A model generated the notes under the pieces. The model was not told where the DNA came from and ran no database searches. It saw only the letters and a list, made by a program, of their open reading frames with translations. The position numbers were made by a program, and so were the translations under genes. From Chiridota heheva (taxonomy: Eukaryota > Echinodermata > Holothuroidea > Apodida > Chiridotidae), in contig JAIGNY010000879.1 of the NCBI GenBank assembly GCA_020152595.1, positions 487,001-551,000 of the forward strand: a stretch of 64,000 bases of DNA, given 5' to 3'. Each line of letters opens with the position of its first letter. Positions within the stretch are counted from its first letter, which is position 1. Shown piece by piece: positions 116 through 62,464 of the stretch.

Positions 116-990
116 CTGAAAAACGGCACTATATAAATTGAATGTGTTTAACAAATATTTAAAAGGTATTAACGTAAATTTAACAAATACAAAATTTTTT
201 TTTCAACATTGAAACATTGAATAAAAATTTGTTTTATAAAAAAATCTGAGAAAGCACAAGGCATGCAAAATATTTGGCAGTATAATTTCTTTATTTTACT
301 ACTAGTTGGCATTAAACAATGATTTTTTCAATTTTTTCTTAAAATATCTGGGTTTATCTCAAATCTAGTAAATTGGTTGATATACTTAAAAAAACTATTT
401 GATTGATTGTTCTTAATGGAAGGCCAGTCTAAGGATTATCTGCAACAAAGAGACAAAGATTCTATCTCATACTTTTTAAGATCTATGGAAATGTAGCACA
501 AATTTGTGCTTAATTGGAATAAAATATGCTATAAACCATAAAAATATGCTATAAACCATAAAGATATGCCATCAACCATGAAGATTTGCTCTAAACCATG
601 AAGATAGCAAAAAGAACATCATAATCGGATAAAAACTGACCATTTTAGAGCAATTGAATTTTAAGACCTTATCATAATAAATTATGCAAAATCTATTGTA
701 ATTTTGTGACATGGGCTTGTGAAGTGCATGTTAAAATTAAACACAAAAAAGTTTCCAAATAATTTAGAAAGAGGTAATTAATTTTCAAAGAAAAACACAA
801 CAATTTTCTTGGAAGTGCAATTATGACATCATTCTGTTGGATTAGACTTACTGAACCTGTCACTTTTTAACACAGGGTGGGAATCTGTGAAATGTGATTA
901 ACTCCCACAAAAAATAAGATATTAACATGATTTTTATCACCAATTTCTTTCTTGAATAGTTGTGTTTCATATAAATCATCGTCATTTCTC
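116..990. other. Intron, old dispersed repeat
   Basis: AT-rich intron sequence with no coding signal. About 700-955 resembles 14230-14460 (shared order of motifs AAAAAGTTTCCAAATAAT, GCAATTATGACATCA and ATTAACATGATTTTTATCACC), so both are probably copies of an unnamed old repeat. A short tandem run of ATATGCTATAAACCATAAA units lies at 525-610. Confidence 0.5.
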
Positions 991-991
991 A

Positions 992-3900
992 TCAGCCACT
1001 GCCCTAGAGCAGCAAGCTTGTTGGCATGGACTCTGTGCCAGATAAGGCTTTGCCCTCCTATCAGCCACTCTTCTAGAGCAGCAAGCTTGTTGGCATGGAC
1101 ACTGTGTCAGAGAAGGCCTTGCCCTCCTATCAGCCACTGTCCTTAAGCAGCAAGCTTGTTGGCATGGACACTGTGTCAGAGAAGGCCTTGCCCTCCTATC
1201 AGCCACTCTTCTAGAGCAGCAAGCTTGTTGGCATGGACACTGTGTCAGATAAGGCCTTGCCCTCCTATCAGCCACTGTCCTAGAGCAGCAAGCTTGTTGG
1301 CATGGACACTGTGTCAGAGAAGGCCTTGCCCTCCTATCAGCCACTGTCCTGGAGCAGCAAGCTTGTTGGCATGGACACTGTGCCAGATAAGGCCTTGCCC
1401 TCCTATCAGCCACTCTTCTAGAGCAGCAAGCTTGTTGGCATGAACACTGTGTCGATAAGGCCTTGCCCTTCTATCAGCCACTGTCCTAGAGCAGCAAGCT
1501 TGTTGGCATGAACACTGTGTCGATAAGGCCTTGCCCTTCTATCAGCCACTGTCCTAGAGCAGCAAGCTTGTTGGCATGGACACTGTGTCAGATAAGGCCT
1601 TGCCCTCATATCAGCCACTGTCCTAGAGCAGCAAGCTTGTTGGCATGGACACTGTGTCAGAGAAGGCCTTGCCCTCCTATCAGCCACTGTCCTAGAGCAG
1701 CAAGCTTGTTGGCATGGACACTGTGTCAGAGAAGGCCTTGCCCTCTTATCAGCCACTGTCCTAGAGCAGCAAGCTTGTTGGCATGGACACTGTGTCAGAG
1801 AAGGCCTTGCCCTCCTATCAGCCACTGTCCTAGAGCAGCAAGCTTGTTGGCATGGACACTGTGTCAGAGAAGGCCTTGCCCTCCTATCAGCCACTGTCCT
1901 GGAGCAGCAAGCTTGTTGGCATGGACACTGTGTCAGAGAAGGCCTTGCCCTCCTATCAGCCACTGTCCTGGAGCAGCAAGCTTGTTGGCATGGACACTGT
2001 GTCAGAGAAGGCCTTGCCCTCCTATCAGCCACTGCCCTAGAGCAGCAAGCTTGTTGGCATGGACACTGTGCCAGATAAGGCTTTGCCCTCCTATCAGCCA
2101 CTGTCCTAGAGCAGCAAGCTTGTTGGCATGGACACTGTGTCAGATAAGGCCTTGCCCTCCTATCAGCCACTGTCCTTAAGCAGCAAGCTTGTTGGCATGG
2201 ACACTGTGCCAGATAAGGCTTTGCCCTCCTATCAGCCACTGTCCTTAAGCAGCAAGCTTGTTGGCATGGACACTGTGTCAGAGAAGGCCTTGCCCTCCTA
2301 TCAGCCACTGTCCTGGAGCAGCAAGCTTGTTGGCATGGACACTGTGTCAGAGAAGGCCTTGCCCTCCTATCAGCCACTGTCCTAGAGCAGCAAGCTTGTT
2401 GGCATGGACACTGTGTCAGAGAAGGCCTTGCCCTCCTATCAGCCACTGTCCTGGAGCAGCAAGCTTGTTGGCATGGACACTGTGTCAGAGAAGGCCTTGC
2501 CCTCCTATCAGCCATTGTCCTGGAGCAGCAAGCTTGTTGGCATGGACACTGTGTCAGAGAAGGCCTTGCCCTTCTATCAGCCACTGTCCTGGAGCAGCAA
2601 GCTTGTTGGCATGGACACTGTGTCAGAGAAGGCCTTGCCCTCTTATCAGCCACTGTCCTAGAGCAGCAAGCTTGTTGGCATGGACACTGTGTCAGAGAAG
2701 GCCTTGCCCTCCTATCAGCCACTGTCCTAGAGCAGCAAGCTTGTTGGCATGGACACTGTGTCAGAGAAGGCCTTGCCCTCCTATCAGCCACTGTCCTGGA
2801 GCAGCAAGCTTGTTGGCATGGACACTGTGTCAGAGAAGGCCTTGCCCTCCTATCAGCCACTGTCCTGGAGCAGCAAGCTTGTTGGCATGGACACTGTGTG
2901 CCAGAGAAGGCCTTGCCCTCCTATCAGCCACTGTCCTAGAGCAGCAAGCTTGTTGGCATGGACACTGTGTCAGATAAGGCCTTGCCCTTCTATCAGCCAC
3001 TGTCCTGGAGCAGCAAGCTTGTTGGCATGGACACTGTGCCAGATAAGGCTTTGCCCTCCTATCAGCCACTGTCCTAGAGCAGCAAGCTTGTTGGCATGGA
3101 CACTGTGTCAGATAAGGCCTTGCCCTCCTATCAGCCACTGTCCTGGAGCAGCAAGCTTGTTGGCATGGACACTGTGCCAGATAAGGCTTTGCCCTCCTAT
3201 CAGCCACTGTCCTAGAGCAGCAAGCTTGTTGGCATGGACACTGTGTCAGATAAGGCCTATCAGCCACTGTCCTGGAGCAGCAAGCTTGTTGGCATGGACA
3301 CTGTGCCACTGCCCTCCTATCAGCCACTGTCCTAGAGCAGCAAGCTTGTTGGCATGGACACTGTGTCAGATAAGGCCTTGCCCCCTATCAGCCACTGTCC
3401 TAGAGCAGCAAGCTTGTTGGCATGGACACTGTGTCAGATAAGGCCTTGCCCTCCTATCAGCCACTGTCCTTAAGCAGCAAGCTTGTTGGCATGGACACTG
3501 TGCCAGATAAGGCTTTGCCCTCCTATCAGCCACTCTTCTAGAGCAGCAAGCTTGTTGGCATGGACACTGTGTCAGATAAGGCCTTGCCCTTCTATCAGCC
3601 ACTGTCCTAGAGCAGCAAGCTTGTTGGCATGGACACTGTGTCAGAGAAGGCCTTGCCCTCCTATCAGCCACTGTCCTAGAGCAGCAAGCTTGTTGGCATG
3701 GACACTGTGTCAGATAAGGCCTTGCCCTCCTATCAGCCACTGTCCTAGAGCAGCAAGCTTGTTGGCATGGACACTGTGTCAGAGAAGGCCTTGCCCTCTT
3801 ATCAGCCACTGTCCTAGTGCAGCAAGCTTGTTGGCATGGACACTGTGTCAGATAAGGCCTTGCCCTTCTATCAGCCACTGTCCTGGAGCAGCAAGCTTGT

Positions 3901-4075
3901 TGGCATGAACACTGTGTCGATAAGGCCTTGCCCTTCTATTAGCCACTGTCCTAGAGCAGCAAGCTTGTTGGCATGGACACTGTGTCAGATAAGACCTTGC
4001 CCTCATATCAGCCGCTGTTCTAGAGCAGCAGGCTTGTTGGCATGGACACTGTGTCAGATAAGGCCTTGCCCTCCT
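992..4075. repeat. 69-bp minisatellite, about 45 units
   Basis: Direct tandem units of 69 bp built on AGCAGCAAGCTTGTTGGC, ATGGACACTGTGTCAGAGAA and GGCCTTGCCCTCCTATCAGC. Because 69 is a multiple of three, long open frames occur on both strands (repeating 23-residue peptides), which is why it can be mistaken for genes. Unit variants (CAGAGAA/CAGATAA/CCAGATAA; TCCTGG/TCCTAG/TCCTTAAG) are ordered non-randomly, and shortened units occur near 3250-3330. It lies in a kinesin intron, is richer in GC than the flanks and carries a HindIII site per unit. Confidence 0.97.
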
Positions 4076-4275
4076 GATGTGTGGGTTCCTCTCAGGTGCC
4101 AGGGGATCTACCAGTCATCCCTGTGCCAGATGGATTGATAGCTTATAACAACATGGGAGTGGGTAACTGCATCAGATCTGGCTGCAGCAGCATGATGACA
4201 TGTAATGACCAACACAGCTCACCATTATTCAAAATTTGAATGAGTGTCAACGAGTCACTAGACTTATGAGATGAA

Positions 4276-4316: not shown

Positions 4317-4514
4317 TGAAAGAAAGGAATGACAAATATCATGGGAATATTCCTTTAATGCAAAATTGTACTCACTCTCCAGATGGTGCAAGCTCACAGA
4401 TTTCAAACCAGATCAGGAGATCATGTTTGGAATGCAGATGACTGGTGCTCGGTGTGTTCACCAACCCAAGCTTTGGTGATGGAACTAAATCATGAGATAA
4501 AAGAAGAATAAACT

Positions 4515-5696: not shown

Positions 5697-5880
5697 AGGC
5701 TTCTTGGAGTATGGAATTCCAGTCCAATCTTACACTTTATGATTTCATTGTTTTGTTAGGCAATTATGGGCCATTCAAATGGGAAGGGGGGGAGGCTTCT
5801 TGGGGAAGAATTCCAGGGTGGGATCTTACACTTTATGATTTCATTGTTTTGTTAGGGGATGAAAGGGGGATTCAAATGGG
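5697..5880. repeat. ~95-bp tandem duplication beside G-rich array
   Basis: The segment from GGCTTCTTGGAGTATGGAAT through CTTTATGATTTCATTGTTTT to ATTCAAATGGGA occurs twice in tandem (about 5697-5790 and 5791-5880). In the second copy GGGGATGAAAGGGG is inserted just before ATTCAAATGGG, and the large G-rich array follows directly. Confidence 0.85.
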
Positions 5881-6655
5881 AAGATGAAAGGGGGGATGAA
5901 AGGGGGATGAAAGGGGATGAAAGAAGGGATGAAAGGGGGATGAAAGGGGGATGAACGGGGGGATGAAAGGGGGATGAAAGGGGGATGAAAGGAGGGATGA
6001 AAGGGGGATGAAAGGGGGATGAAAGGGAGGCGATGAAAGGGGATGAAAGGGGGATGAAGGGGGAGGGATGAAAGGGGGATGAAAGGGGGATGAAAGGGAG
6101 GGATGAAAGGGGATGAAAGGGGGATGAAAGGGGGGATGAAAGGAGGGATGAAAGGGGGATGAAAGGGGGATGAAAGGGGGATGAAAGGGGATGAAAGGGG
6201 GATGAAAGGGGGATGAAAGGGAGGGATGAAAGGGGGATGAAAGGGGGATGAAAGGAGGGATGGAAGGGGATGGAAGGGGGATGAAAGGGGGTTGAAAGGG
6301 AGGGATGAAAGGGGATGAAAGGAGGAAAGGGGATGAAAGGGGGATGAAAGGGGGATGAAAGGGGGATGAAAGGGGATGAAAGGGGATGAAAGGGGGATGA
6401 AAGGGGGATGAAAGGGGGGATGAAAGGGGGGGGATGAAAGGGGGATGAAAGGGGGATGAAAGGGAGGGATGAAAGGGGGATGAAAGGGGGATGAAAGGGA
6501 GGGATGGAAGGGGGATGGAAGGGGATGAAAGGGGGATGAAAGGGGGATGAAAGGGGGATGAAAGGGGGGATGAAAGGGGGGGATGAAAGGGGGATGAAAG
6601 GGGATGAAAGGGGGATGAAAGGGGGATGAAAGGGGGGATGAAAGGGGGGATGAAA
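5855..6655. repeat. G-rich GATGAAAGGGGG array
   Basis: About 70 units of 10-13 bp, GATGAAAGGGGG with 3-7 G per unit. On the transcript (minus) strand it is a C-rich tract. The plus strand has dense G runs and strong G-quadruplex potential. A Pro/His-rich open frame on the minus strand is a by-product of the repeat. Confidence 0.95.
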
Positions 6656-7004
6656 GAAGGGTGGGGGTGGTATGAATTACTGCTGGCCTGAAATATTTTC
6701 GAAAATTTTGTACAAATAGCAACCTATTAGTTTTTGGAGGCTAAATTTAACTGCATAACAAAAATGAATAAAATAATATCGCCTCAAATTCTGAACCTTT
6801 TAGCATCTTTTCTGGACTTATGAACATGAATTTACTTTTTTCTCCACAGGGTTGAATGACCCCTTGGCTACATGAGAACAGAATAAGTGTGGGGCTGTGA
6901 GGGGGTGGCATATTAATGTACTGTATGTTCATTGTCATTAATCAAATCTTTCTCCTCAAAATGTAAATGAATTACAAATGAGATACATCATCTATGAAGC
7001 TCAC

Positions 7005-7057
7005 CTGGTCTAGCTAGTGGCAAGGTTGGTGGAAAGCTTCTCTTTGATGGTCGAACT
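7005..7057 (-). CDS. unc-104/KIF1: Kinesin-3 exon: RPSKRSFPPTLPLARP
   Basis: A 53-nt exon encoding VRPSKRSFPPTLPLARP, matching the basic-proline linker (R-P-S-R-R..FP..MPLS-P) of KIF1A/KIF1B. Acceptor TTTTTGTAG, donor GTGAGC. The phase fits the previous exon (AG + A = Arg). Confidence 0.88.
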
Positions 7058-7718: not shown

Positions 7719-7837
7719 CTTGTGTTTTGCTGGCTCTGTGTGTGTAGAGGATGTGCCTGGTAATGACCAAAGACTTCAAACACGATGGGAGATGTATGGA
7801 TGTAGTGAAGGAATGCTTTCGTCACCGTCACTGATAT
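7719..7837 (-). CDS. unc-104/KIF1: Kinesin-3 exon: [11 protein letters not shown]
   Basis: Encodes [34 protein letters not shown] and SQQNTR. [15 protein letters not shown] is diagnostic of KIF1. Acceptor TTTTCAG, donor GTACGT. Enters in phase 0 from either alternative exon and leaves with AG of an Arg codon. Confidence 0.95.
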
Positions 7838-13189: not shown

Positions 13190-13211
13190 TCAGACTGTAG
13201 TATATACCACT

Positions 13212-13470
13212 AAGCATGATAAACATGATGTCATGGCAAGCCCATTGTTAAGCATGATGTCATGGCAGCCCCATTGGTAAGCATGATGTCATGGCAACCC
13301 CATTGATAAGCATGATGTCATGGCAACCCCATTGATAAGCATGATGTCATGGCAAGCCCATTGTTAAGCATGATGTCATGGCAAGCCCATTGATAAGCAT
13401 GATGTCATGGCAGCCCCATTGGTAAGCATGATGTCATGGCAGCCCCATTGATAAGCATGATATCATGGTG
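13212..13470. repeat. 29-bp minisatellite
   Basis: Nine units TAAGCATGATGTCATGGCAA + CCCCATTGA. It lies in the intron immediately downstream (transcript sense) of alternative exon version 2. Confidence 0.92.
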
Positions 13471-13639
13471 CATGTACGATGCATAAAATATCTCCAAAAC
13501 TTAGGTATTTTAAAATACTTTATAAATAGAGTTTCTCCCAGGACTGTCTAAAGAAAAATCTCTGCCGTAAAAGAGGGAGTACTTCCACAATGTTTTTAAT
13601 AAAGGAGGCAACACACAGCATCTGCGACAAGACACTTAC

Positions 13640-13739
13640 ATTTTGAACAAAGTAAATTCCGAGAGCCCTTGAAGAGTGTGTATATGGGCCAGCGTTTTCC
13701 ACAGATGGCGTGACAAAAGCCTCATGGCCATGCAGTAAA
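13640..13739 (-). CDS. unc-104/KIF1: Kinesin-3 alternative exon, version 2 (divergent)
   Basis: Encodes LLHGHEAFVTPSVENAGPY and THSSRALGIYFVQN. It aligns with version 1 as H-x-H-(D)-E-A-F at the start and Y/F-x-VQN at the end, with identical exon-end bases GTTCAAAAT|GTAAGT. 100 nt: one completing base plus 33 codons, ending in phase 0. The acceptor TTTCCAG is stronger than that of version 1. Including both versions would give an immediate frameshift and stop, as expected for mutually exclusive exons. Function unknown; it replaces a conserved surface segment of the KIF1-type domain. Confidence 0.88.
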
Positions 13740-14963
13740 CTGGAAAGGAACAGAAATATCTAATTTTTTGACATCAAAAGCTATTTTTTTGTTTTTTTGG
13801 CCAAAAGTAAAACAAAAATACAACTTTTTCACTAACTGCATTTTACTGGACATCATTATGGGACAAAAGAAACAAAATACAAAGAAAAAACTCATTCAAT
13901 TACCAAAAGCTGTTTTTATGAGTAAATTTAAAATAGATTTTCTTATTTTTCTGAAAATAAACTTTTAACCTAATCTGACAGCAGGTGCTAATAAAGGAAT
14001 GTTCCATGAATTTACATTTATATGGTAGAGGACAATTAAAAAAATAAATTAGTGGAAAAAACAAAAACATGTTGACATCTTGTTCCGAGTTATTGTATTT
14101 CAAAGATTACACCAGGGTGTTTATAAGTGACCTTGCAGTGTACAATGTGATGTCATAAGAGCAGATCCAAGAGATTTCTTGATTTATTTCAATAAAATCA
14201 AACTTGATTATTCTTTCATTTAGAGTACATTTGCAAGGTATAAAGTGTATATTATACCCCATCTCATAAATTAAACAAGAAAAGTTTCCAATAATTTATA
14301 AAATAGCAATTAATTATCAATTTTGATCTGCAATGACATCACACTTTCCTTTGCACTTTTCAACACACTTAAGAAATCCTGAAATGCAATAACTTCTAAA
14401 CAGAGTGATATATCAACATGGTTTTTTACCATTTTCTTTCATTAATAGCCTCTCCCATATATATGAAAATTCTTGGGAATATTCCTTAAATATTTAGAAA
14501 CTGCTTAGAGTAGTCAAAGTATGACATCAACCATTTTAAGCAATCCTGATTCAACATGTAAATTGCAATATTTTGTCTTCAATGATGAATTTATGTAAGA
14601 TTTGATTTCAAAAGAAACATTTAAATTTCAAGTATTTTGGTAGATTTTGAGATTTGTAGATTTGAATTCTCACGATGTCACCTGGAAATAAACAAGAGAG
14701 GGAAAAAGTCTGGTCAACCATAATGATGTCCAACGATGCAATACACATATCAATGGCATGCAAACTTAAAAATTAACTAAAAAGCAAAATAACGGAAGAA
14801 ATTATTGGACAAAAAATTTCAAAAAATATTGTTGCCGCTAACAAGGTGCATCTGGTTTGATGGTGGTTATCGCAACACGAAAGGAGACAGCAATAGGAAC
14901 GAAACACGTGGCTTCAAGCACGGCAGGCAAGGACCGTCTCCTCACTTGCTCAGCCAAACTTAC

Positions 14964-15054
14964 ATTTTGAACGTGGTAGAAGCCAAGAGGCGGACCTCCA
15001 ACCGTATTCTTCAGCGGTTCTGTAGAGAATGCTTCATCATGACGATGCATGAAA
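14964..15054 (-). CDS. unc-104/KIF1: Kinesin-3 alternative exon, version 1 (canonical)
   Basis: Encodes [20 protein letters not shown] and [10 protein letters not shown], which matches the invariant [14 protein letters not shown]...FYHVQN of KIF1A/KIF1B/UNC-104. 91 nt: one base completes Asn from the previous exon, then 30 codons, ending in phase 0. Acceptor CCATAAG, with a modest pyrimidine tract; donor GTAAGT. A second exon of the same phases and ending lies 1.2 kb downstream (13640-13739), so the two are predicted to be mutually exclusive. Confidence 0.94.
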
Positions 15055-15744
15055 CTTATGGGAGAGAAATCATGGGGTTAAAAATACATGGCGATGTATG
15101 AAAATCACAGGACCAATTTGGTAATTTTGATAAAAAAATTGTCATGAAGTATTTATAAGTCTTGGAGAAAACTTTGTGAGCAGTCGTAGTCACAACACTT
15201 TGACGGAGAACATCTTCCTTTCAATGACAGAGATGTTATAAACTTATATCCTAGCTACCCCAAACTAAGAAAAGCTAAAAACCTGAAAGACAACTCCTTC
15301 AATATCAATGCACTTATTTCCCTCTGTGCATCGCGACTTTCACAACTAAAATTTTCTCTTACTCTAAAAGGTTTTTTTAACATTTAAAGATGCATGGTTT
15401 CAAGCTCTTTTCACTTGAAAATCAAACAAGATGTTTTCACGTACTCGTATTCCTTTAATTTATTTCAAGGAAATAAAGGAAAGTTTGATTTCAACTGAAT
15501 CCAAAACTGATACCTACAGAATAAGCTAAACAAATCAAGGATTTGTTTCTGTCATGAAACTTGTTCAAACTGTACATCAAATATACTTTCTCCTACAAAT
15601 CTTTACACATCTAATAAATTAGTCCCAAATCTAATCAATACAAAAAATAACCCAAATTATATAGCATTGTCAGATTATGTAAGAACCTCTCTCCTATGCA
15701 TTGTAGTGGGTTAAATCCTTGTGAGCCACTAAAGACTCATTTAG

Positions 15745-16020
15745 GCCTATCCCTTGTTTCCCTTGTATCCCTTGTTTAGGCCTATCCCTTGTTTCCATGG
15801 TGTAAGAGGATGGCAGTACATGACTACCACTGGATGGGGCATCAGTCCATGGCAGGTCAACTCCCCAGCAGGCTGGTACTCATTACAGCTGAGTCGGCTG
15901 GAGCAATCAGAAATGAAGCGTCTTGCTCAAGAACAAAACGTGGTAATCAGAGTGAAAATGGACCCCAGGACCTTTGGAATACAAGTCAGATGCTCCATTG
16001 CTGAGCTACCCTGTTTCCTT
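15745..16020 (-). mobile_element. tRNA-derived SINE
   Basis: The minus strand begins AGGGTAGCTCAGCAATGGAG (tRNA A-box region) and CATCTGACTTGTATTCCAAA, then GGTCCTGGGGTCC near a decayed B box. The tail contains the widespread AGTACCAGCCTGCTGGGGAG motif. Interrupted copy; a second partial copy is at 31437-31590. Confidence 0.7.
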
Positions 16021-16456
16021 ATAAATAAGAAATACCGTATTCGACATATTAGGCATCCCTGAAGAGCCTACCAAACGTGTTTTGACAGATAATTAATTTA
16101 TTTTATCAATTTGAAGAACTAAAATAAGTTTTGTTTCATTATTTGCTATTTTGCATCTGACGTTAATTATGTTGTGGTGGTGGGTATTGTGAGGCTAGTA
16201 TTATAGAACCTGTTTACCCAATACAGGTGGAATGGCAAACTGCATGCAACCAGAGCATGGGTGCTTATCAGAAAGAAACTTTGGGCCCCAAAAGTGAGGG
16301 AATTCTATTTTTGTAAGCGCCCTTATTAGTGGAATACGGTAATCCTACATGATATAGCATTGTTAGGGCATAATATGACCTCTCTCCTATGCAATATGCA
16401 TGATCCTAAAATAGCTGTAAAAGTAAGGTTAACAGAAGAGAGAGACAAAAACTTAC

Positions 16457-16643
16457 TTGAATTGGCAGAAGATGTCTGAATACTCAGATGAAATTCCTGA
16501 TGCCTGTAGGACAGTGACGCGGAACGTGAACGTGGCGCCAATCTGGAGGTGTTCCCCGTACTTCATTTCAGAATTGCTAAATGTCTGTAGGGTATCAATG
16601 TCTGTTGTCGTCGCTTCCGTCTCTCGGGCGCATTCTTCAAGGT
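16457..16643 (-). CDS. unc-104/KIF1: Kinesin-3 exon: [24 protein letters not shown]
   Basis: Starts with the divergent linker [19 protein letters not shown] and ends with [19 protein letters not shown] and [12 protein letters not shown]. The latter half is a hallmark of KIF1 kinesins (C2-like beta-rich region). Acceptor TGGCAG, donor GTAAGT. It ends with AA, which becomes Asn with either of the two alternative next exons. Confidence 0.96.
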
Positions 16644-19485: not shown

Positions 19486-19767
19486 CTGCAGTTGACAAAT
19501 AAAAAAGAAAGAAAAAAGGTAATTACAGATGGTTGTCCCTAAGAGTATTCAAAGTAGAACCAAAAGGTACTTGTGCTATTTCAATTACCTTCCAGCATAG
19601 TTTCAACTAAACATTATCACATTTTCAAAATGATTTGACTTAAGACCTATAATACAGTTCTTATTGAGGTAACATGCAATGCTCACCCTCAATTCATTTC
19701 ATTATCAAAACCGAGAGTAAACAAGTGCTTTTGTATGTGTTGATATAGTGCACTGCTTATATTATGA

Positions 19768-20350
19768 TTACACTTTCGCAATGTACTATTACACTTTCGC
19801 AATGTACTATTACACTTTCGCAATGTACTATTACACTTTCGCAATGTACTATTACACTTTCGCAATGTACTATTACACTTTCGCAATGTACTATTACACT
19901 TTCGCAATGTACTATTACACTTTCGCAATGTACTATTACACTTTCGCAATGTACTATTACACTTTCGCAATGTACTATTACACTTTCGCAATGTACTATT
20001 ACTTTCGCCATGTACTATTACACTTTTGCAATGTACTATTACACTTTTGCAATGCACTATTACACTTTCGCCATGTACTATTACACTTTCGCAATGTACT
20101 ATTACACTTTCGCCATGTACTATTACACTTTCGCCATGTACTATTACACTTTCGCCATGTACTATTACACTTTTGTAATGTACTATTACACTTTCGCCAT
20201 GTACTATTACACTTTCGCCATGTACTATTACACTTTCGCCATGTACTATTACACTTTTGCAATGTACTATTACACTATCGCCATGTACTATTACACTTTC
20301 GCCATGTACTATTACACTTTGCAAAATCAACTGTACTATTACACTTTTGT
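19768..20350. repeat. 21-bp minisatellite, 27-28 units
   Basis: Units TGTACTATTACACTTTCGCA + A. The first eleven or so are identical (CGCAATG). From 19998 on units switch between CGCCATG and TTGCAATG/TTGTAATG. 21 is a multiple of three, giving open frames on both strands. It starts about 280 bp upstream (transcript sense) of the exon at 19339-19485. Confidence 0.97.
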
Positions 20351-21206
20351 TAATTGTTCTCAGCACAATCAAGGCCCATTCACTGAATCAGTGATTGTAA
20401 TTTGAGTCTGGGACTGTAAAAATTGACCAAGCATTTAAATTGGACCAAGCATTGAAATTGACCAAACATTTAATACCCAGTATTTCATGGTCAGGTTTTA
20501 AAGCGACCCTAATAGCGTAATGTAACAAATGATGGCTACAATCTTGGACAAAACTATAGGAACACTGAAGCTAGTTTCTTATATCAATCATGTAATTAAC
20601 TACAATATGCAATTTATTTTGTATACTTCATCCCCCTCCCCTGCCCCAATCAATGTTGAATTGAATATACAAACCAAGTTAAAACTGTCTCAACAATGAT
20701 CAACATTTATTTGGGAGGGGGGGGGGCATGATTTATTCTGGGAAAATGAGAAAAATGTCTATATATACAATTTCTTTTGGACAAAATTTCAGATTGACAC
20801 ATAATTTACCATTTATTTATCATTATGCTCTATGTGGAGGGGGCAGGAAAAAATACTCTGATAATTACTTTTATATTTCAAAAAAATTTCATAAAAGTAA
20901 CCTTAAAATTAAATAACATACAACTGATTAATAGATTGACCTTAGATCAAATTATAAACAAAATCACAACAGACTGTGTTTGTAGTTGTAAGAGAAATTG
21001 TTGCAGAATTTGTAACTGCACGTTTGTAGTATTTCTTTCAAAGTGTGTGCATATTTTCCAGTTCTGTACATTTTGACAGTAATCGAGGGGCACTTTTATT
21101 TCTTAAAGAGACACTTTTGTTATTTTTTAGAAAAGTGTGAGGGCACAGGCAAAGGCCCCCTAGTTCCTACACCAATATCTGACCATCAGAAATTATTTTC
21201 CCTTAC

Positions 21207-21940: not shown

Positions 21941-21993
21941 GCAAATTGACACCCATATTATATAACCCGGCAAATTAAAAAAATGGCATCTAA

Positions 21994-23240
21994 CACTAAG
22001 TCCCACATGGCATCCCATGTACCACATGGCATCTCACCCCATGTCCCACATGGCATCCCACATGGCATCCCATCCCATGTCCCACATGGCATTCCTCCAT
22101 ATCTTCCACATGGCATCCCACCCCATGTCCCACATGACATCCCATGTCCCATGTAGCATTCCATCATATGTCCCACAGGGCATCCCATCCTATGACCCAT
22201 GTGGCATTCCACCCAATGTCCCACATCCCATGTACCAAATGACATCCCACCTCATGTCCCACATGACATCCCATGCCTTGTCCCACATGGCATTCCACCA
22301 TATCTCCCACATAGCAAAGCACCATACAGTGTCTCACATGGCATTCCACCATATGTCCCACATGGCACTCCACGCTATGACCCACATAGATCCTATCCTA
22401 CATGTATGTCCCACATTAATCCAACCATATGTACCACATGACATCCCTCCCTATGTCCCACATGGCATCCCTCCCTGTGTCCCGCATCAGTGGCTTCCCA
22501 CCTGATGTTCCACATAGCATCCCACCATATGTTCCACATGGTATCCCTCCTAATGTCCCAATGACATCCTACTTAATGCCCCACATGGCATCACATCCCA
22601 TGTCCCACATCCCCATGGCCTCCTACCCTATGTCCCACATAGTCTCCTACCCTATGTCACACATGGTATCCTACCTTATGTCACACATGGTATCCTACCT
22701 TATGTCACACATGGCATCCCAACCTATGTCACACTCTGTGTTACTTGTGGCATCCCACCATATCCCACATGGCATTCTACCCTGTTCCACATGGCATCCC
22801 ACCCCATGTCCCACATGGCATCCCATTCCATGTCCCACATGGCATCCCACCCCATGTCCCACATGACATCCCATAGGCTCCATAAGAAGTCTGATCCTAG
22901 CTATCACAGTCCCTGATTGAGCAAACTATGTATGAAAGTGTCAGTTGTTGAAATGGGGTTAGACGCCATGTCCCACATGACACCCCATGTCCCACATGAC
23001 ATTCCATCCCATGGCAATCCACCCTATGTCCTGCATGGCATTCCACCACATATCCTACGTGGCATTCCACCCTGTTCCACATGGCATCCCACCCCATGTC
23101 CCACATGGCATCCCACCCCATGTCCCACATGGCATCCCACTCCATGTCCCACATGGCATCCCACCCCATGTCCCACATGGCATCCCACCCCATGTCCCAC
23201 ATAGCAACCCACCCTATGTCTAACATGACATTCCATAAGC
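21994..23240. repeat. 24-bp hairpin-unit minisatellite with duplicated flank
   Basis: Units CCCACATGGCATCCCACCCC plus ATGT, about 45 copies, each containing CCATGTCCCACATGG, a 6-bp stem with a CCC loop. The array is in two blocks (21994-22870 and 22965-23235). Each block is followed by the same unique segment beginning CTCCATAAGAAGTCT and ending AAAGTGTCAGTT (22874-22945, 23238-23310), so block plus flank was itself duplicated. Confidence 0.93.
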
Positions 23241-23934
23241 TCCATAAGAAGTCTCATCCTAGCTATCACAGTCCCTGATTGAGCATACTATGTATTAAAG
23301 TGTCAGTTCATATAATAACTTCTATGCAAATGAGTTGTTGAATAAGAAAAAAAGGTGAAGTCAAATAATCTTGCCTGATATAGCCCTTGGTGTATACCAC
23401 ATGGTAAATATAAAATCATATGTCCTTTATGGCCCCCATCCATGTCCCACATGGCATCCCTCCCTATGTTTATATGCAATCACATCCTGTCACACTCCCT
23501 GACTAAGCATATTAAATACAAAAGTATGGTCAGGTCATAATACTGTAGCAACTTTATGCAAATGAGCACAATATTAAAGGTGGAGTTTAAAAAATCATGC
23601 CTGATACAACTGTTGGTGCCCAAATATTTTGAAGAATTTTAAGGATTTTAAATCTCAAGTACTACAAGAGAGACTTGAAGATCTCTGAAGAAAATTGGAA
23701 AATTATATCATTTTACAGTTATCTTGGAAGAAAATATCAAATGTTTTGTAGACTTTAGAAGGAAACTAGTCTTCAATCCTGTCCTAAGTGTCTCTGAAAA
23801 ACTTTAACATTTTATGAGGAAATTCTAACCTTCCATAAGGATATCTGAAGAAACTTTAACTTTTTGTGAGGAACTCTGAAGAAACTTTTACATTTTCTGA
23901 GGAATTCTCAAAAAACTTAAACATTTCTCAGGAA

Positions 23935-25178: not shown

Positions 25179-25255
25179 TCTAATGGATGTAAATCTGTAA
25201 TTCTTCCATTTTTTAAGGACCCAGGTAGCTACTTGCTGTTCTGCTTCAGTCCAGG
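25179..25255 (-). CDS. unc-104/KIF1: Kinesin-3 exon: WTE...KWK...FTS helix
   Basis: Encodes WTEAEQQVATWVLKKWKNYR and FTSIR. It matches the conserved kinesin-3 stalk segment with pattern WTERE...W..RKWK.YQFTSLR. Acceptor CCTCCAG, donor GTGAGT. The phase joins the preceding DDDQIE (via Thr) across a 25.6-kb intron and the following DDLWGNA. Its 3' half, donor region and adjoining intron have been copied about eight times immediately downstream in the transcript (24515-25178). Confidence 0.95.
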
Positions 25256-39548: not shown

Positions 39549-42500
39549 TGATAGTCTTTTGATAGGTCAGGTCAGGCAATCTGCTACTGGTAACCATGTG
39601 GACCAGTACTTACTGTTTTGGTCTAGCCATCGGTGACTAAACCGGCACCCCCACCAGGCTTGCTTGGTAAGGAGGGTGTGGCTAAGCACCCAGCAGAACT
39701 AAAAACAAGACCTGTGGAGTCAACAGCCACTTAGCTAAACCTTAGGTGCCCTGTGGTATCTCCTTAAGGGGCGGAGTTATTCTGTACTGCAAAACTCCCG
39801 AGCCAACCACTGCAGTTTTCATTGGACCAGTGTGTCGTGACCAGCTCACGCCTGGAGGAATCATCGCATGATCTGCCAATAGAGTACACCTAGTAATGGC
39901 AAAAGCTTGGATGTACTTTAAACCAAATTGCCAGCAGTCCTGAAAAAATACGTTATCAACCATGGAAAGCGTACAAGTCATTTCAGATACCAGCTCGGTC
40001 GTCGCCTGGGTTAACAAGGACTGCGCCGATCACCTTACGCTCAGGGGGTCAGTAAGAAGTAAGTAAGGATGTAGTAAAACTAGAAAAACAAGAAACCTGA
40101 CAATCGCTCTGTAGAATGTGAGAACGATGCTTAATCGCAACGACTTTTACAGACCACAAAGACGCACTGCTCTGATAGCTAATGAGCTGTCCAGATATCA
40201 GATTGATATAGCTGCCCTTGGTGAAACAAGATTCTTGGATAGTGGTAGTGTGGCAGATGTGAGAGTTTACATTCTTTTGGAGTGGAAAACCAGGTGGAAG
40301 CAAACATGAATCAGGAGCTGCTATTGTCATCAAGACTGCCCTGCTGAAGAGCCTTGAGGAAGGACCAAATGCCATAAGTGGCAGAATCATGTCACTCAGA
40401 ATACCTCTCACAGCCAATCACCACCTTTCAGGGTATCAGTGTATATTCTCCTACCATGACAAACACAGCAGAAGCTAAGGAGCAATTCTACTCTATTCTA
40501 ACACAAAGTCTTTAATAAACACCACAGCAAGACAAACTCCTATTGTTGGGTGACTTTTAATGCTCGATTGGGAAGTGATTGCACGAAGTTGCCCAACGTA
40601 CTGGGAGGGTTTGGAGTCAGAAACACCAACTCAAATGGGGAGATCTCATTGTCTCTGTGAATAGAACATAATCTCACAATCACCAACACCATCTTCAAGC
40701 AGAAACTGGAACGTAGTCACATGGATGCACCCCAGATCAAAACATTGGCATCTTATAGCTTATGTGATAACGCAACAATGTGATAGGATGGACATCTTGA
40801 GCACAAGAGTCATGAGAGGAGCCAACTGTTCAAGAGCTCACCAAATGACAAGAACAAAGGTCAAACTCAGACTGAAACCATCCACAAGAAAAACTGGCCC
40901 TGCAAAACCAAAGAAACTACCAGTCTCAACGCTGAAGTATGACCTCACCAGAGAAATGCTCTTATCAAAGCTAGACAAAGCCTTGTCCACATAATTCATT
41001 GGTGAAATCCACAAATAAAAATTGGATTAAACTGAGGGAGAAAAAAATATAAAACTGCAAGTCAAGTGCTTGGCAAACCAGAACGTAAACACGAGGACTG
41101 GTTCGACCCTGAGGAAGAACAGCTGTTGAAACTTATTGATAACAAAAACAAAGCCCACCAGAGCTTGCTTCAATCCAGAAACACTCGCTCGGCCACAAAA
41201 ACCCTTAGAGAAGCTCGTAACAATCTCCAGAAATACACCTGGAATTTGAAAGAGGCCCGATGGGAAGGCAAAGCAAAGTTGATCCAGATTGCTGCTGACA
41301 CCAACAACATGCAGGCCTTCTATACTGGGTTGAATGAAGTTTATGGATCTTTAAAAGAACCAACATGGTTCTACTCAGAAGATGGCTCAGACTTCATCAA
41401 GGAAAAAAGCAAGGTTGCTGAACGTTTTGCCACCCACTTTAAGAAGCTCCTCAATGTTGATGGGAGAATCAGTGAAGATGCACTCTCAAATGTTACCCCA
41501 CAAACTACAGTTGAAATTATGGATGATCCCCCCAACATGGAAGAGATTAGCATGGCAGCATCAGCCATCTCCATCGGAAAGGCACCAGGTTGTGATGGGA
41601 TACCCGGTGAGATATGGCAAATGGCTGTAAAAAAGCTTTAGGAGTGTCTACATCATCTTATTCTGCGGTGCTGGGAGGATGAGTCCATACCAGATAAATG
41701 GAAAAATGCGAAATTGTGCCGCTATTCAAGAAGGGAGACAAGAAAATTTGTGAAAACTACCGAGGCATATAATAACTGTCAATCGCCAGTAAAGTCTTCT
41801 CTAAAAAATTTTTGAAAGACTGAATGACCACATTGCTCCTGCTGTCCTTCCGGAAACCCAGTCTGGCTTCAGATCAAACTGAAGCACAATCAACATGATC
41901 TACTGTCTGTGTCAGTTGCAAGAAAAAGTATTGAGCAAAATATGCTACTGTACATAGTGTTCATCAATTTTACTTAAGCCTTTAACACAATGGGTCGTGT
42001 AGGATTGTGGCAGCTGTTAAGGAAGTTTGGTTGCTTAAAAAAGTTAAACAATATGATTCATTCTCCACATGATTGAATAATGGCACAAGTATCGGTCCAG
42101 TGGCACAAGTATCGGTCCAGGATGCAAGATCTGAGCAGTTCCAAGTCTCTAAAGACATGAAACAGGGCTGTGTTCTGGCGCCTACCCTGTTCCTCTCTGC
42201 TATGCTTGAAGAAAACTTTTAAAGTGCTGAAGGTGAGGTATACATCCGATGCTGCCAAAATGCAGACCTATTTAAGGTGTCACAATTCGAAGCGAAGTGT
42301 TGGCCAGAGAATTACTGTTTGCGGATGATAGTGCTTTGGTGACATTCTGCACTCTCGAGATAGCATGCAGCATCTCACAGATGCTTTTGCAGTGGCAGCA
42401 AGCAAATATGGACTGCAGATAAATATAGAGAAAACCGAGGTGTTGGTGCAATCACCACAGGAGAATGATGTTGACACAGCAATCACTATATCTGGTCAAG

Positions 42501-43985: not shown

Positions 43986-44800
43986 TCAACTCACACTCTC
44001 TTTAAAGAAAGGCAGATTCGAGTCTCAAGACATGTGGGCTGTAGATGAAATAGAGAGCTCTTGAAGTTCGCCCACACTAATAGACATACTTCTGGCATTT
44101 GAAACTCTGCAGTATGTAAACCAAGTTCTCACAGAGAAAGTGTTCTAATTTTTTGTAAAATGAGTTAAAAGTTCAACTGTTCAATTGTCAACTGTTATCA
44201 CTACGTGCATGGCCGTACTAGGCGGGAGCGGTAGGCCTCCCCCCTCCCCACCCCGTCAGCTAGATACATATCTTTATAGTCAGGCACAATCAGTTTGTTT
44301 GTTTGTTTGTTTGATGAGGTCTTAACGGCACCACGACAACGAAGGTCAAATTGTGCCTGAGAGGTCAGATCATTTTAGAGGTAGTAAGGAAAGAGACCAG
44401 GGGAAGAATGAGAGAAATTCAAGAACAAAAGCCAGAAAGCTGTGATCGAGAGAGGAGGTGCATGGGTAAAACAAAAAACAAAGTAGAGAGGGGGTGGAAG
44501 AGGAGAATTAAATATGGTTGTAAAGGGATGCATGCTGAAGGAAGGAGACTATTTTATCTGGAGGATTTTTTTGGAAGAACTCAGCAATTGATTTGTGGGG
44601 AGCGAGGGAAGCTCTGGGAAGGTTGTACAGGGGGCAAGCAAGGAGAACGTGTTGGATTGTGAGGATGCAGTGGCAATTGTTACAGAGGGGTTGGGGGGAA
44701 CCAATAAGGAGGTGGGAGTGAGTGAGGTGGGTGTGACCAATTCTAAGACGAGTAATATGAACGTTGTCGATACGAGAAAGGTTGTTGATGGTGGATTTGA
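43984..44800. repeat. Duplicated block, right copy
   Basis: Counterpart of 38570-39546. Shared first part (43984-44190) and RNase H LINE fragment (44290-44800). The middle spacer differs: about 265 bp on the left, about 100 bp on the right. Confidence 0.85.
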
Positions 44801-45500
44801 TCGGGATTGTGGGCTGGATAACATGGAGTTTGTTATCAATTTGGAAGTTCCATAAGGTTTGCCAGCGGTCACGAACAAGAGAAGCGATAAGGGGTTTGAT
44901 GTCAGAGAGGGTTTTGGGAAAAGGGGAAGGGAGGAGGTTAAGGGCAAGCTTAGCGGCTGTATCAGCCCTGTCATTGCCAGGGATGCCAACATGGCTGGGT
45001 ATCCAGAAGAAAAGAGCACTTTTCCTGCAGAGGGTGGGAGAAAAGAGTTTCCGGAGGAGGAGGTGGCAGGTGAGGTTATCCCATTTAAGATTGAGTAATG
45101 AAGTAAGAACAGCCTTTGAGTCAGAGAAAATGGCAAAGTGACTAAGAGGAGAGTACTCAATAAAGTTGAGGGCGAGGAGAATGGCCTTAGCCTCGGCTGA
45201 AAAGATGGATGAGTGGTCAGGAAGTCTGCTACTGAGGGTGATGTCTTGGATGATGGCAGCAGCAGCTGTCTTGTTGCCTTCCTTGGAGCCATCAGTATAG
45301 ATGGAGGTGTAATTTGAGAGTTGGTCTTTGATTTGGTTGTGGAGATTGATGAAGAGATTAGGGTGAGTTTGAGTTTTGTTATAAGTGGAGAGGTCTAGGT
45401 GGACAGAAGGAAGGGGGGTGGCCCAAGGCGGAAAAGTGGGCCAGGAATAGGTGCCGAGAGTGGCGGGGTTGATGCCAAGTTGAAAGAGGTCTGATTTAAT
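44290..45500 (-). mobile_element. RNase H-bearing LINE, 3' fragment 2
   Basis: The minus strand, across frames, carries the C-terminal RNase H domain and tail of a non-LTR element: AEAKAILLALNFIEYSPLS, SDSKAVLTSLL and PSHVGIPGNDRAD, then the tail motif LRIGHTHLTHSHL. Ends in (CAAA)n. The reverse-transcriptase part is missing (5' truncated) and the frame is broken. Confidence 0.8.
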
Positions 45501-45504
45501 GCGT

Positions 45505-46260
45505 AAGCTGCAGAATCAGGCCCAACTCGGCTAGATATCTGGGTCATGCCCTCCCATCTCGGCATGACGTTGACAATGTGATACTTGGGCACCGATCTTA
45601 TATAGTCAGGCAGAGAGGCAAAGTGTACTTTTAAAATCAGTGATTTGTCGGAATCATTCATGCTGTTGCAGTTTTATTTCCCGATACTTAAAAAGAAATT
45701 TCCCAAAATCAAAAAACTACCCAGAAATTTAGGAAAATGTTCTGAAAATGGAAGGAAATTGCACAAAAATGGAAGAAAATTTGTTGAAAATTAAATAAAG
45801 CACCCAAAAATTTCCCTGAAAATACGCTAAATTCCCAAAAATCGAAAAATCTGCACGCAAAATTAAGGAAATTTCCCTAAGAATGCCTGGAAATGAAGGA
45901 ATGATCCTGAATATTGAGGATATTTTCCCAAAATATTTGTGAAAATGCAAAACTTGCCCGAATATGATTTTCTTTCTTTCAAAAATTAAAGAAAATTGCC
46001 CAGAAATTAAGGAAAGCTTCCAAAAACTGAGAAAACTTTCCAGAAAATTGACAACAACTTTGCTGAAATATCCCGAAAATCAAAAAACCTCCCAGAAAAT
46101 TTCTTGGAAATAAAGGCTATTTTCTGAATCCTGCCCCCTCCCCCCTGAAAGCCCAAATCTATGGTGAATTCATTACTCAAAATTAATTGTTCATTCACAG
46201 ATTCACTGCGATTTTCTCTTCGTAATAGGTTTTCGAGTTGGGCAAAAAGTCACCACCCCT
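45505..46260. other. Intron, unrecognised sequence and purine-rich quasi-repeat
   Basis: 45505-45660 is a GC-balanced stretch of unknown origin (minus-strand fragment LILKVHFASLPDYIRSVPKY), possibly another transposon piece. 45670-46110 consists of loose A-rich repeats such as GGAAATTTCCCTAAGAATGC and AAAATTTCCCAGAAATTAAG. No host gene. Confidence 0.4.
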
Positions 46261-46284: not shown

Positions 46285-47585
46285 CATGCTAATGTTTGTT
46301 TGATGAGGGCTTAATGGCACCACAACAGCGAGGGTCAAATTGTACCTGAGAGGTTGAAACATTCCAGAGGTAGGAAGAGAAGAAAATAGGGGGAGGCTGA
46401 GAGAAACACTGGGACTAAAAGCCAAGAAGCTGTAATAAAGAGAGGAAGTGTATGGGTTCAAAAAAGTGGTAAAAGTAGAGAGAGGTGGGTGGGAGAGGAA
46501 GAATAAATATGGTTGTAGAGAGAAGTGTGATGAAGGAAGAAGATAATTTTATCTGGGTTTTTTTTCTGGAAGAGCTTGGCTATTGAGTTGTGGAGGGTGA
46601 GGGAAGCTCTGGGAAGGTTGTTCAGGGGGCAGGCAAGGAGGACGTGGTGTGGACTGTTAGGGTGCAATGGCAATTGTTGAAGAGGGTTGGGGGGAGCCAA
46701 TAAGATGGGAGTGAGTGAGGTGGGTGTGATCTATCTTAAGGCGAGTAATGTGAACCTTGTCGACACGGGAGAGATTATGGATGGTGGGTTTAATCAGAAT
46801 GGTGGGTTTAATCAGAATGGTGGGCTGGATGATGTGGAGTTTGTTATCAATTTGGGAGTCCCATGAGGTTTGCCAGCAGTCATAAACAAGGAAAGCAATA
46901 AGTAGTTTGATGTCAAAAAGGGTTTTAGGAAAGGGGGTAGGAGGGAGGTTTAGGGCAAGCTTAGTGGCTGCATCAGCTCTGTCATTACCGAGGATGCCAA
47001 CATGGCTGGGTATCCAGAAGAAAAGAATACTTTTCCTGCAGAGGAGTTTATGAAGGAGGTGGGACATGAGGTTATCCCATTTAAGATTGAGTAATGAAGT
47101 AAGGACAGACTTGGGAGTCTGAGAAGAAGGCAAAGTGGCTGAGCGGGGAGTACTCAATAAAGTTGAGGGCGAGTAGGATGGCCTTGGCCGAGAAGATGGA
47201 TTAGTTGGGAAGCCTGCTACTGAGGGTGATGTTTTGGATGACAGCAGTATGCAGCAGCTGTCTTGTCGCCTTTCTTGCAGCCATCAGTATAGATGGAGGT
47301 GTAGTTTGAAAGTTAGTCTTTGATTTGGTTGTGGAGGTTGAGGAAGAGGTTGGGGTGGGCTTGGGTTATGTGATGAGTGGAGAGGCCTGGTGGATAGAAG
47401 GAAGGGGGTCGCCCAGGGAGGAATGGTGGGGCAGGAGAAGGTGCCAAGAGTGGCGGGGTTAATGCTGAGATGGTGGAGGTTGGGTTTGATGCGTAAGCTG
47501 AAGGGAGGGGATAAGGTTTTAAACCTATCAAAGAGGGTAGAGAAATTGGGGTACCTACATGTAATGGCAAAATGCTTTACAATCT
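46285..47585 (-). mobile_element. RNase H-bearing LINE, 3' fragment 3
   Basis: Best preserved of the three. Minus strand, with frameshifts: KSVLTSLLNLKWDN, then WIPSHVGILGNDRADAATK (last acidic site and basic pocket of RNase H), DCWQTSWDSQIDNKLH and the tail LKIDHTHLTHSHLIGSPQP. Further 5' is PLHVGTPISLPSLIGLKPYP, which precedes RNase H. 5' truncated, same orientation as the other two. Confidence 0.85.
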
Positions 47586-51902: not shown

Positions 51903-52129
51903 ATGACAGCGTGGGCAACCCAAAATCAAAATGTATTTATTTATATTTCTGTCCAAAATGTCAGAATAGTCTATTCCTACTAAAATTTGATTGAAAGTAT
52001 GCATGGTAAACACTCAAAAAGTTTTGATCTGATTATGCTAAACTCCTTCAAAGAATAAAGACAGACATTCAAAAGAGAAAGATAATCAAAATCGAGTATC
52101 AAGTTCACCTTGTAAATGCATCAAAATTG

Positions 52130-52694: not shown

Positions 52695-52884
52695 CTCTGC
52701 TCCATTTCCTCCTTGAGATCAATTCCTTGTTTTTGAAGAAGTTCATTCTGAGCAAACACCCAATCAGCGGGCTCCCCACCATCACCGCTCGGTGTGGTGT
52801 GTGGGGACTTTTCACGCTCCTGACGCACTTGTTGGGGATGGTTGAAGCGAAAGACATGGTAATGTCCAAATATTATTCGGTAGC
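52695..52884 (-). CDS. unc-104/KIF1: Kinesin-3 exon: end of FHA and linker helix
   Basis: Encodes [20 protein letters not shown], then [18 protein letters not shown] and [20 protein letters not shown], ending [14 protein letters not shown] is the last FHA strand of KIF1 proteins; the [16 protein letters not shown] segment starts the next coiled coil. Acceptor TTCCACAG, donor GTGAGA. A tandem array begins within about 15 nt of the donor. A frame-broken copy of this exon lies at 51776-51902. Confidence 0.96.
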
Positions 52885-61560: not shown

Positions 61561-61744
61561 TGATTGAAGATAAGATATTGTCTGAGGTTGGATAGAGTTT
61601 GAAACTCATTTCTCAGAGAAAGGACTTAGTAATGATGGCTAAAAATCTCAAGAACCTATTACACTGGGAGGAGTTTCATCCACACTGCAGTAGCAAGTCT
61701 GGAACTGTCTCCCAGACTATGCTGTTGAAGAGATTCACAACAAA

Positions 61745-62388
61745 GGGGCTCAGTCTTACAAAACATGGGGGTTTAGTCTTACAAGACATGGGGGCTCAGT
61801 CTTACAAGACATGGGGGCTCAGTCTTACAAGACATGGGGGCTCAGTCCTACAAGACAGGGGCTCAGTCCTACAAGACATGGGGGCTCAGTCCTACAAGAC
61901 ATGGGGGCTCAGTCCTACAAGACATGGGGGCTCAGTCCTACAAGACATGGGGGCTCAGTCCTACAAGACATGGGGGCTCAGTCCTACAAGACATGGGAGC
62001 TCAGTCCTACAAGACATGGGGCTCAGCTCAAGACATGGGAGCTCAGTCCTACAAGACATGGGAACTCAGTCCTACAAGACATGGGGGCTCAGTCCTACAA
62101 GACATGGGGGCTCAGTCCTACAAGACATGGGAGCTCAGTCCTACAAGACATGGGAACTCAGTCCTACAAGACATGGGGGCTCAGTCCTACAAGACATGGG
62201 GGCTCAGTCCTACAAGACATGGAGGCTCAGTCCTACAAGACATGGGGGCTCAGTCCTACAAGACATGGGGGCTCAGTCCTACAAGACATGGGGGCTCAGT
62301 CCTACAAGACATGGGGGCTCAGTCCTACAAGACATGGGGGCTCAGTCCTACAAGACATGGGGGCTCAGTCCTACAAGACATGGGGGCG
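61745..62388. repeat. 23-bp minisatellite, about 28 units
   Basis: Units GGGGCTCAGTCCTACAAGAC + ATG; variants GGGAGCTC and GGGAACTC, one truncated (GACAGGGGCTC) and one scrambled unit (GGGGCTCAGCTCAAGACATG). All three plus-strand frames stay open because none contains a stop. Confidence 0.97.
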
Positions 62389-62464
62389 TCATCATCTTCT
62401 CTCAGCACCATAATTATTTTCATTCCATTTCTAAACTGCTGTGAACCATTACTTGGCTCATGAG

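Follow-up and report, generated by a model that had tools for sequence, protein, structure and literature searches.

Two exons on the minus strand of the window (the whole 64,000-nt stretch of Chiridota heheva DNA analysed here, with positions counted from its first letter) very probably arose by an old tandem duplication of a single exon and serve as mutually exclusive alternatives for the same place in a kinesin-3 protein. Exon A (15054–14964, 91 nt) carries the canonical segment, (N) plus 30 residues, and exon B (13739–13640, 100 nt) a diverged alternative, (N)LLHGHEAFVTPSVENAGPYTHSSRALGIYFVQN. B lies downstream of A on the minus strand, the two being spaced by a 1,224-nt GT-AG intron (14963–13740). 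An earlier note on this DNA had claimed the two as mutually exclusive exons of a kinesin-3 gene. Its coordinates for A and B proved correct to the base, and at the level of DNA anatomy the claim is well supported by homology, phases, splice sites, frame and protein constraint.

Judged by its sequence, the host gene is a KIF1A/UNC-104-type kinesin-3 on the minus strand. The end of the motor was found at 59.7–57.7 kb, with KIF1A as its best match in the Protein Data Bank; specifically, the 91 residues at and just after the motor end gave 157 bits with KIF1A, 127 with KIF13B and 103 with KIF14. The domain order was PF00225, then Kinesin_assoc (PF16183) and FHA (PF00498), and the test applied for the KIF1A/UNC-104 subfamily was the arrangement found here, a motor closest to KIF1A with Kinesin_assoc and FHA after it; a PH domain at the C-terminus is a further mark by which the subfamily is known. 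Stalk exons followed in order down to 7.0 kb, human KIF1A serving as a locator only. With the same protein as query, the first ~300 motor residues gave no match within the 64-kb window, and the missing motor start is presumably located beyond 64,000. A further downstream exon candidate of the gene, LHSKHDLLIWFEICEL, was also located with human KIF1A, at 4485–4324 on the minus strand. The segment encoded by A or B belongs to the stalk, well downstream of the motor and FHA; in agreement with human KIF1A, this HRHDEAF segment is probably nearly invariant in KIF1 proteins.

The pair sits in a chain of coding exons on the minus strand. The exon two before it (18124–17814, donor GCA/GTAAGT, the slash marking the exon end) joins in frame and resembles human KIF1A, and the exon directly upstream (16643–16457) ends with DIFCQF plus AA, followed by a GTAAGT donor. 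Downstream of the pair, the exon at 7837–7719 joins in frame, and the next coding exon, VRPSKRSFPPTLPLARP, lies at 7057–7005 (donor CAG/GTGAGC, 3′ end read by eye). Intron lengths are 1,402 nt before A, 1,224 nt between A and B and 5,802 nt after B. Both A and B have AG...GT borders, and each completes the codon AA+T begun by the last two bases of the exon ending at 16457 and leaves in exit phase 0. Across their donors 15 bases are identical, GTTCAAAAT/GTAAGT, comprising the last nine exon bases and GTAAGT. The shared entry phase, the exit phase 0 and the identical nine bases before GTAAGT had all been claimed earlier and can be read directly from the sequence. The acceptor of B, TTCTGTTCCTTTCCAG, is pyrimidine-rich and its donor reads AAT/GTAAGT; both are intact, and B is free of stops and frameshifts. 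Another exon candidate, at 14764–14674, has the phase and length of A but showed no similarity to A by eye and was rejected.

With either exon, the five-exon chain (18124–17814, 16643–16457, A or B, 7837–7719, 7057–7005) forms one open frame that spans SFVYLSNLF to PLARP. When A and B are joined, a stop follows after 5 codons of B, and when both are skipped the reading becomes KYQ*, with a stop three codons after the start of the joining codon. Since the lengths of A and B are both 1 modulo 3, the frame is kept only by transcripts with A alone or B alone. The in-frame joins confirmed the claim that both exons together lead to an immediate stop while either alone keeps the frame. Transcripts with both exons or with neither would thus carry an early stop and would then probably undergo nonsense-mediated decay, so that frame would enforce exclusivity at least as a backstop, with trans-acting factors presumably choosing between A and B.

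The similarity between A and B exceeds what chance would give. Their global BLOSUM62 score was 51, whereas B shuffled 2,000 times averaged −16.8 and never exceeded 33; the score of 51 corresponds to 29% of the self score of A and 28% of that of B. In tblastn searches of the 64 kb, A and B were each other's second-best place after self, with E-values (0.027 with A as query, 0.032 with B) that are modest taken alone; with B as query, an unrelated place came next at 0.12. A scan of phase-matched, stop-free AG...GT segments of 70–115 nt covered 1,498 segments on both strands (754 minus, 744 plus), a count that includes A's and B's own variants, and the best segment other than A or B scored 6, as against 51 for A–B. 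With wider limits on the minus strand, the two were reciprocal best, B being the best for A among 1,876 segments and A the best for B among 1,929. For the neighbouring exons the same scan gave no second copy, with best relative scores of 0.00 among 431 segments and 0.06 among 1,175, the upstream neighbour having been scanned with one base too many. No third copy was found in the 64-kb window by tblastn or by phase-matched segment scans. At the nucleotide level, 48 of 87 aligned bases are identical between A and B, and the indels in the alignment are all whole codons (one codon lost and four gained in B). Two scans of viral contigs and one of prokaryote genomes found no relative with the pair, which is unsurprising given that the gene is eukaryotic.

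The pattern of divergence points to selection on B as a protein. Fourteen of the 29 aligned residues are identical, and only six of these 14 use the same codon; identical sites at codon positions 1, 2 and 3 number 15, 22 and 11, respectively, across the 29 codons. Synonymous change has reached saturation, with 17.5 of 20.3 sites different (pS 0.86), but non-synonymous change has not (21.5 of 66.7 sites, pN 0.32), a contrast with a Fisher P of 6e-5 on rounded counts, taken from an alignment that is short (29 codons) and was optimised before counting. This indicates that B was kept as a protein, since under constraint on A alone one would expect more similar divergence at synonymous and non-synonymous sites. 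Over 20,000 simulations of neutral substitution, started from A, carried on to the observed nucleotide difference and holding the alignment fixed, no stop arose in 23%, at least 14 residues were kept in a fraction of 0.00025, and the same number was kept without a stop in a fraction of 0.00015. As far as the sequence can tell, such past constraint on B is no proof of its use today.

Parts of other exons of the same gene also occur in copies. The exon at 52884–52695 (end of the FHA region) is partially copied about 1 kb downstream, at 51904–51761 on the minus strand; 133 of 145 positions are identical (92%), a 1-nt deletion causes a frameshift and splice sites are missing, features that mark the copy as a young broken exon fragment. 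The 3′ part (ATWVLKKWKNYRFTSIR) of the exon at 25255–25179, together with its flank, recurs on the minus strand in eight further tandem copies of ~75 nt each, down to 24559. A stop interrupts the core in three of these copies, GT is absent from the original donor place in all eight (donor read by eye), and from its sequence the array (25255–24559) is a minisatellite grown from a stalk exon. Judged from these copies, partial exon duplication does happen in this gene, its products being damaged or incomplete even though they still resemble their source; B, by contrast, is complete despite a much greater divergence.

Regarding how exclusivity might be achieved, steric crowding is unlikely given the 1,224-nt intron between A and B, and the identical GTAAGT donors of the two exons argue against a U2/U12 mismatch. 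Inside this intron lies a perfect 15-nt inverted repeat (arms at 14732–14718 and 13861–13847, minus strand), chosen from 21 listed pairs. Shuffling gave a repeat of this length in 3 of 500 cases for the intron and in 6 of 300 for the region 13200–16460, and the minimum-energy fold contains all 15 pairs, so that the repeat may be taken as a possible long-range stem and as a lead only; since it would draw A and B together, it does not explain exclusivity. The hexamer TGCATG, which we take to be an RBFOX-type motif, occurs on the sense strand in exon B (13729–13734) and ~200 nt below the A donor (14757–14762). As it is over-represented across the whole window, with 83 matches on both strands versus 59 expected, nothing is claimed from the two sites near A and B. 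A search of Rfam gave no family at gathering score. In a human survey, 377 clusters (60%) had frame-breaking lengths and joining reads were present in only 83 (22%) of them (PMC5740500), which indicates that frame alone is usually not what separates such exons. By analogy, frame is likely to be a backstop behind other control in the A/B pair as well.

The features that speak for an old duplication with exclusive use may be set against other readings of B. B may long have been a working alternative exon and now be a relic, or be becoming one, left intact by inertia and rarely or never spliced in. Such a history would agree with a middle that departs strongly from the canonical peptide and includes a four-codon insertion, and with the partial or broken state of the other exon copies in the gene; however, B has no stop or frameshift, its acceptor and donor are intact, and protein-level constraint is visible despite the saturated synonymous divergence, so that decay seems unlikely. 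Even less probable is that B acts as a poison exon, added after A to break the frame and trigger transcript decay, thereby tuning the level of the motor. The joined form does reach a stop 5 codons into B, and the 15-nt inverted repeat, by bringing the A donor near the B acceptor, would if anything favour A–B joining, but homology to A, matching phases, a separate open frame and an excess of synonymous change, all of them present in B, are not required of a poison exon.

It is hardly credible that B is a chance open segment, or an assembly artefact, that happens to resemble an exon. The peptide match alone is modest, with tblastn E-values of 0.027 and 0.032 in the window, whereas the alignment score of 51 stands against 6 for other phase-matched segments and a shuffle maximum of 33 (n = 2,000), and with 48 of 87 aligned bases identical the two exons are too diverged for an assembly duplicate.

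With A and B read as exclusive alternatives, placing B instead of A turns 30 stalk residues (to FYHVQN) into 33. B keeps the ends H.H..EAF.T and LG.Y.VQN and has a different middle. Kept ends, a changed middle and three extra residues are what would be expected of a loop between secondary-structure elements, and the fold around the swapped segment would probably be kept while an exposed loop is changed. This loop change would affect how the stalk binds adaptors or makes autoinhibitory contacts, probably by cell type. The earlier note had spoken of a motor isoform: the predicted isoform pair agrees with the DNA anatomy, but the word motor is loose, because the segment is in the stalk, downstream of the motor and FHA. 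With the 253- and 256-residue isoforms as queries, no Pfam family was found at E up to 1; shorter queries gave two unrelated sub-threshold matches for A (E 0.086 and 0.13) and none for B. Among solved structures no relative covers the segment, the sole match (E 0.22) being an unrelated enzyme. A beta-rich, C2-like domain was considered for the segment, and since neither domain libraries nor solved structures gave a related match the idea is only a guess and was set aside.

In a review, DENN/MADD, liprin-alpha and calmodulin are described as acting on KIF1A, calmodulin via the stalk (PMC6775250). Contact between the swapped segment and one of these three would be a guess, and we know of no fine map of contacts for this stalk segment. 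As a tentative proposal, the old tandem exon duplication might have given a synaptic-vesicle motor two interchangeable versions of the conserved HRHDEAF segment, forming a cell-type switch by which one gene would have two adaptor/autoinhibition modes. If true, the job of the two modes is perhaps spread over KIF1A, KIF1B and KIF1C in vertebrates. A natural swap of 30–33 residues kept by selection would suggest that a functional switch lies in this segment, and the A and B versions would be ready-made constructs for adaptor-binding and autoinhibition tests.

Tandem duplicated exons spliced exclusively are a well-described class that is mostly ancient (PMC9741552). The predictor of Pillmann et al. 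(PMC3228551; the same in PMC3923563) asks for compatible splice sites and frame and, by default, for lengths within 20 residues and a relative score of at least 15%. A and B, at 91 and 100 nt, are 3 residues apart, share AG...GTAAGT borders and the same phases with an open five-exon frame for either, and have relative scores of 29% and 28%. Like the human and tandem-duplicated exclusive exons covered by PMC5740500 and PMC9741552, they are adjoining homologues with the same phases, similar length and one frame, and, like 377 (60%) of the human clusters, they have lengths that are not multiples of three (PMC5740500). The human clusters are subject to RNA criteria, namely junction reads of either exon that span its partner and an absence of reads joining the two except where joining would break the frame (PMC5740500); the A/B pair is defined by its DNA sequence. 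Conservation in related species counts as support for such a pair and is not part of its definition. The terms “KIF1” and “kinesin” are absent from the main text of both PMC5740500 and PMC9741552.

Alternative exons have been described in related motor genes. Mouse Kif1a exon 13 is, like A/B, an alternative exon in a KIF1-subfamily gene, where it changes motor behaviour, but it is a single exon that is included or skipped, encodes 10 residues at the neck hinge and has no homologous pair (PMC12436618). The neuron-specific microexon of C. elegans unc-104 likewise produces an UNC-104 motor isoform that is cell-type-specific in the worm, as predicted for A/B; unlike A/B, it adds seven residues in the motor domain and has no homologous pair (PMC12084633). 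In addition, a stage-dependent unc-104 splicing event was recorded on an array (PMC2265522). Among the matches listed from open-licence literature, in the portions available, there was no report of an exclusive or duplicated exon pair in a kinesin-3 gene, and the A/B pair may well be annotated already in animal gene annotations. To our knowledge, no other exclusive duplicate exon is known in a KIF1-type gene.

Elsewhere in the window, open frames resembling LINE-type reverse transcriptase and RNase H were seen by eye, on the basis of their motifs, at 41036–41641, 44508–45515 and 46657–47503, and the stretches 44304–45513 and 46293–47503 are ~80% identical. Also noted by eye were long arrays of tandem repeats, containing open frames on a single strand or on both, at 982–4100, 5841–6740, 19689–20405, 21966–23278 and 61596–62463.
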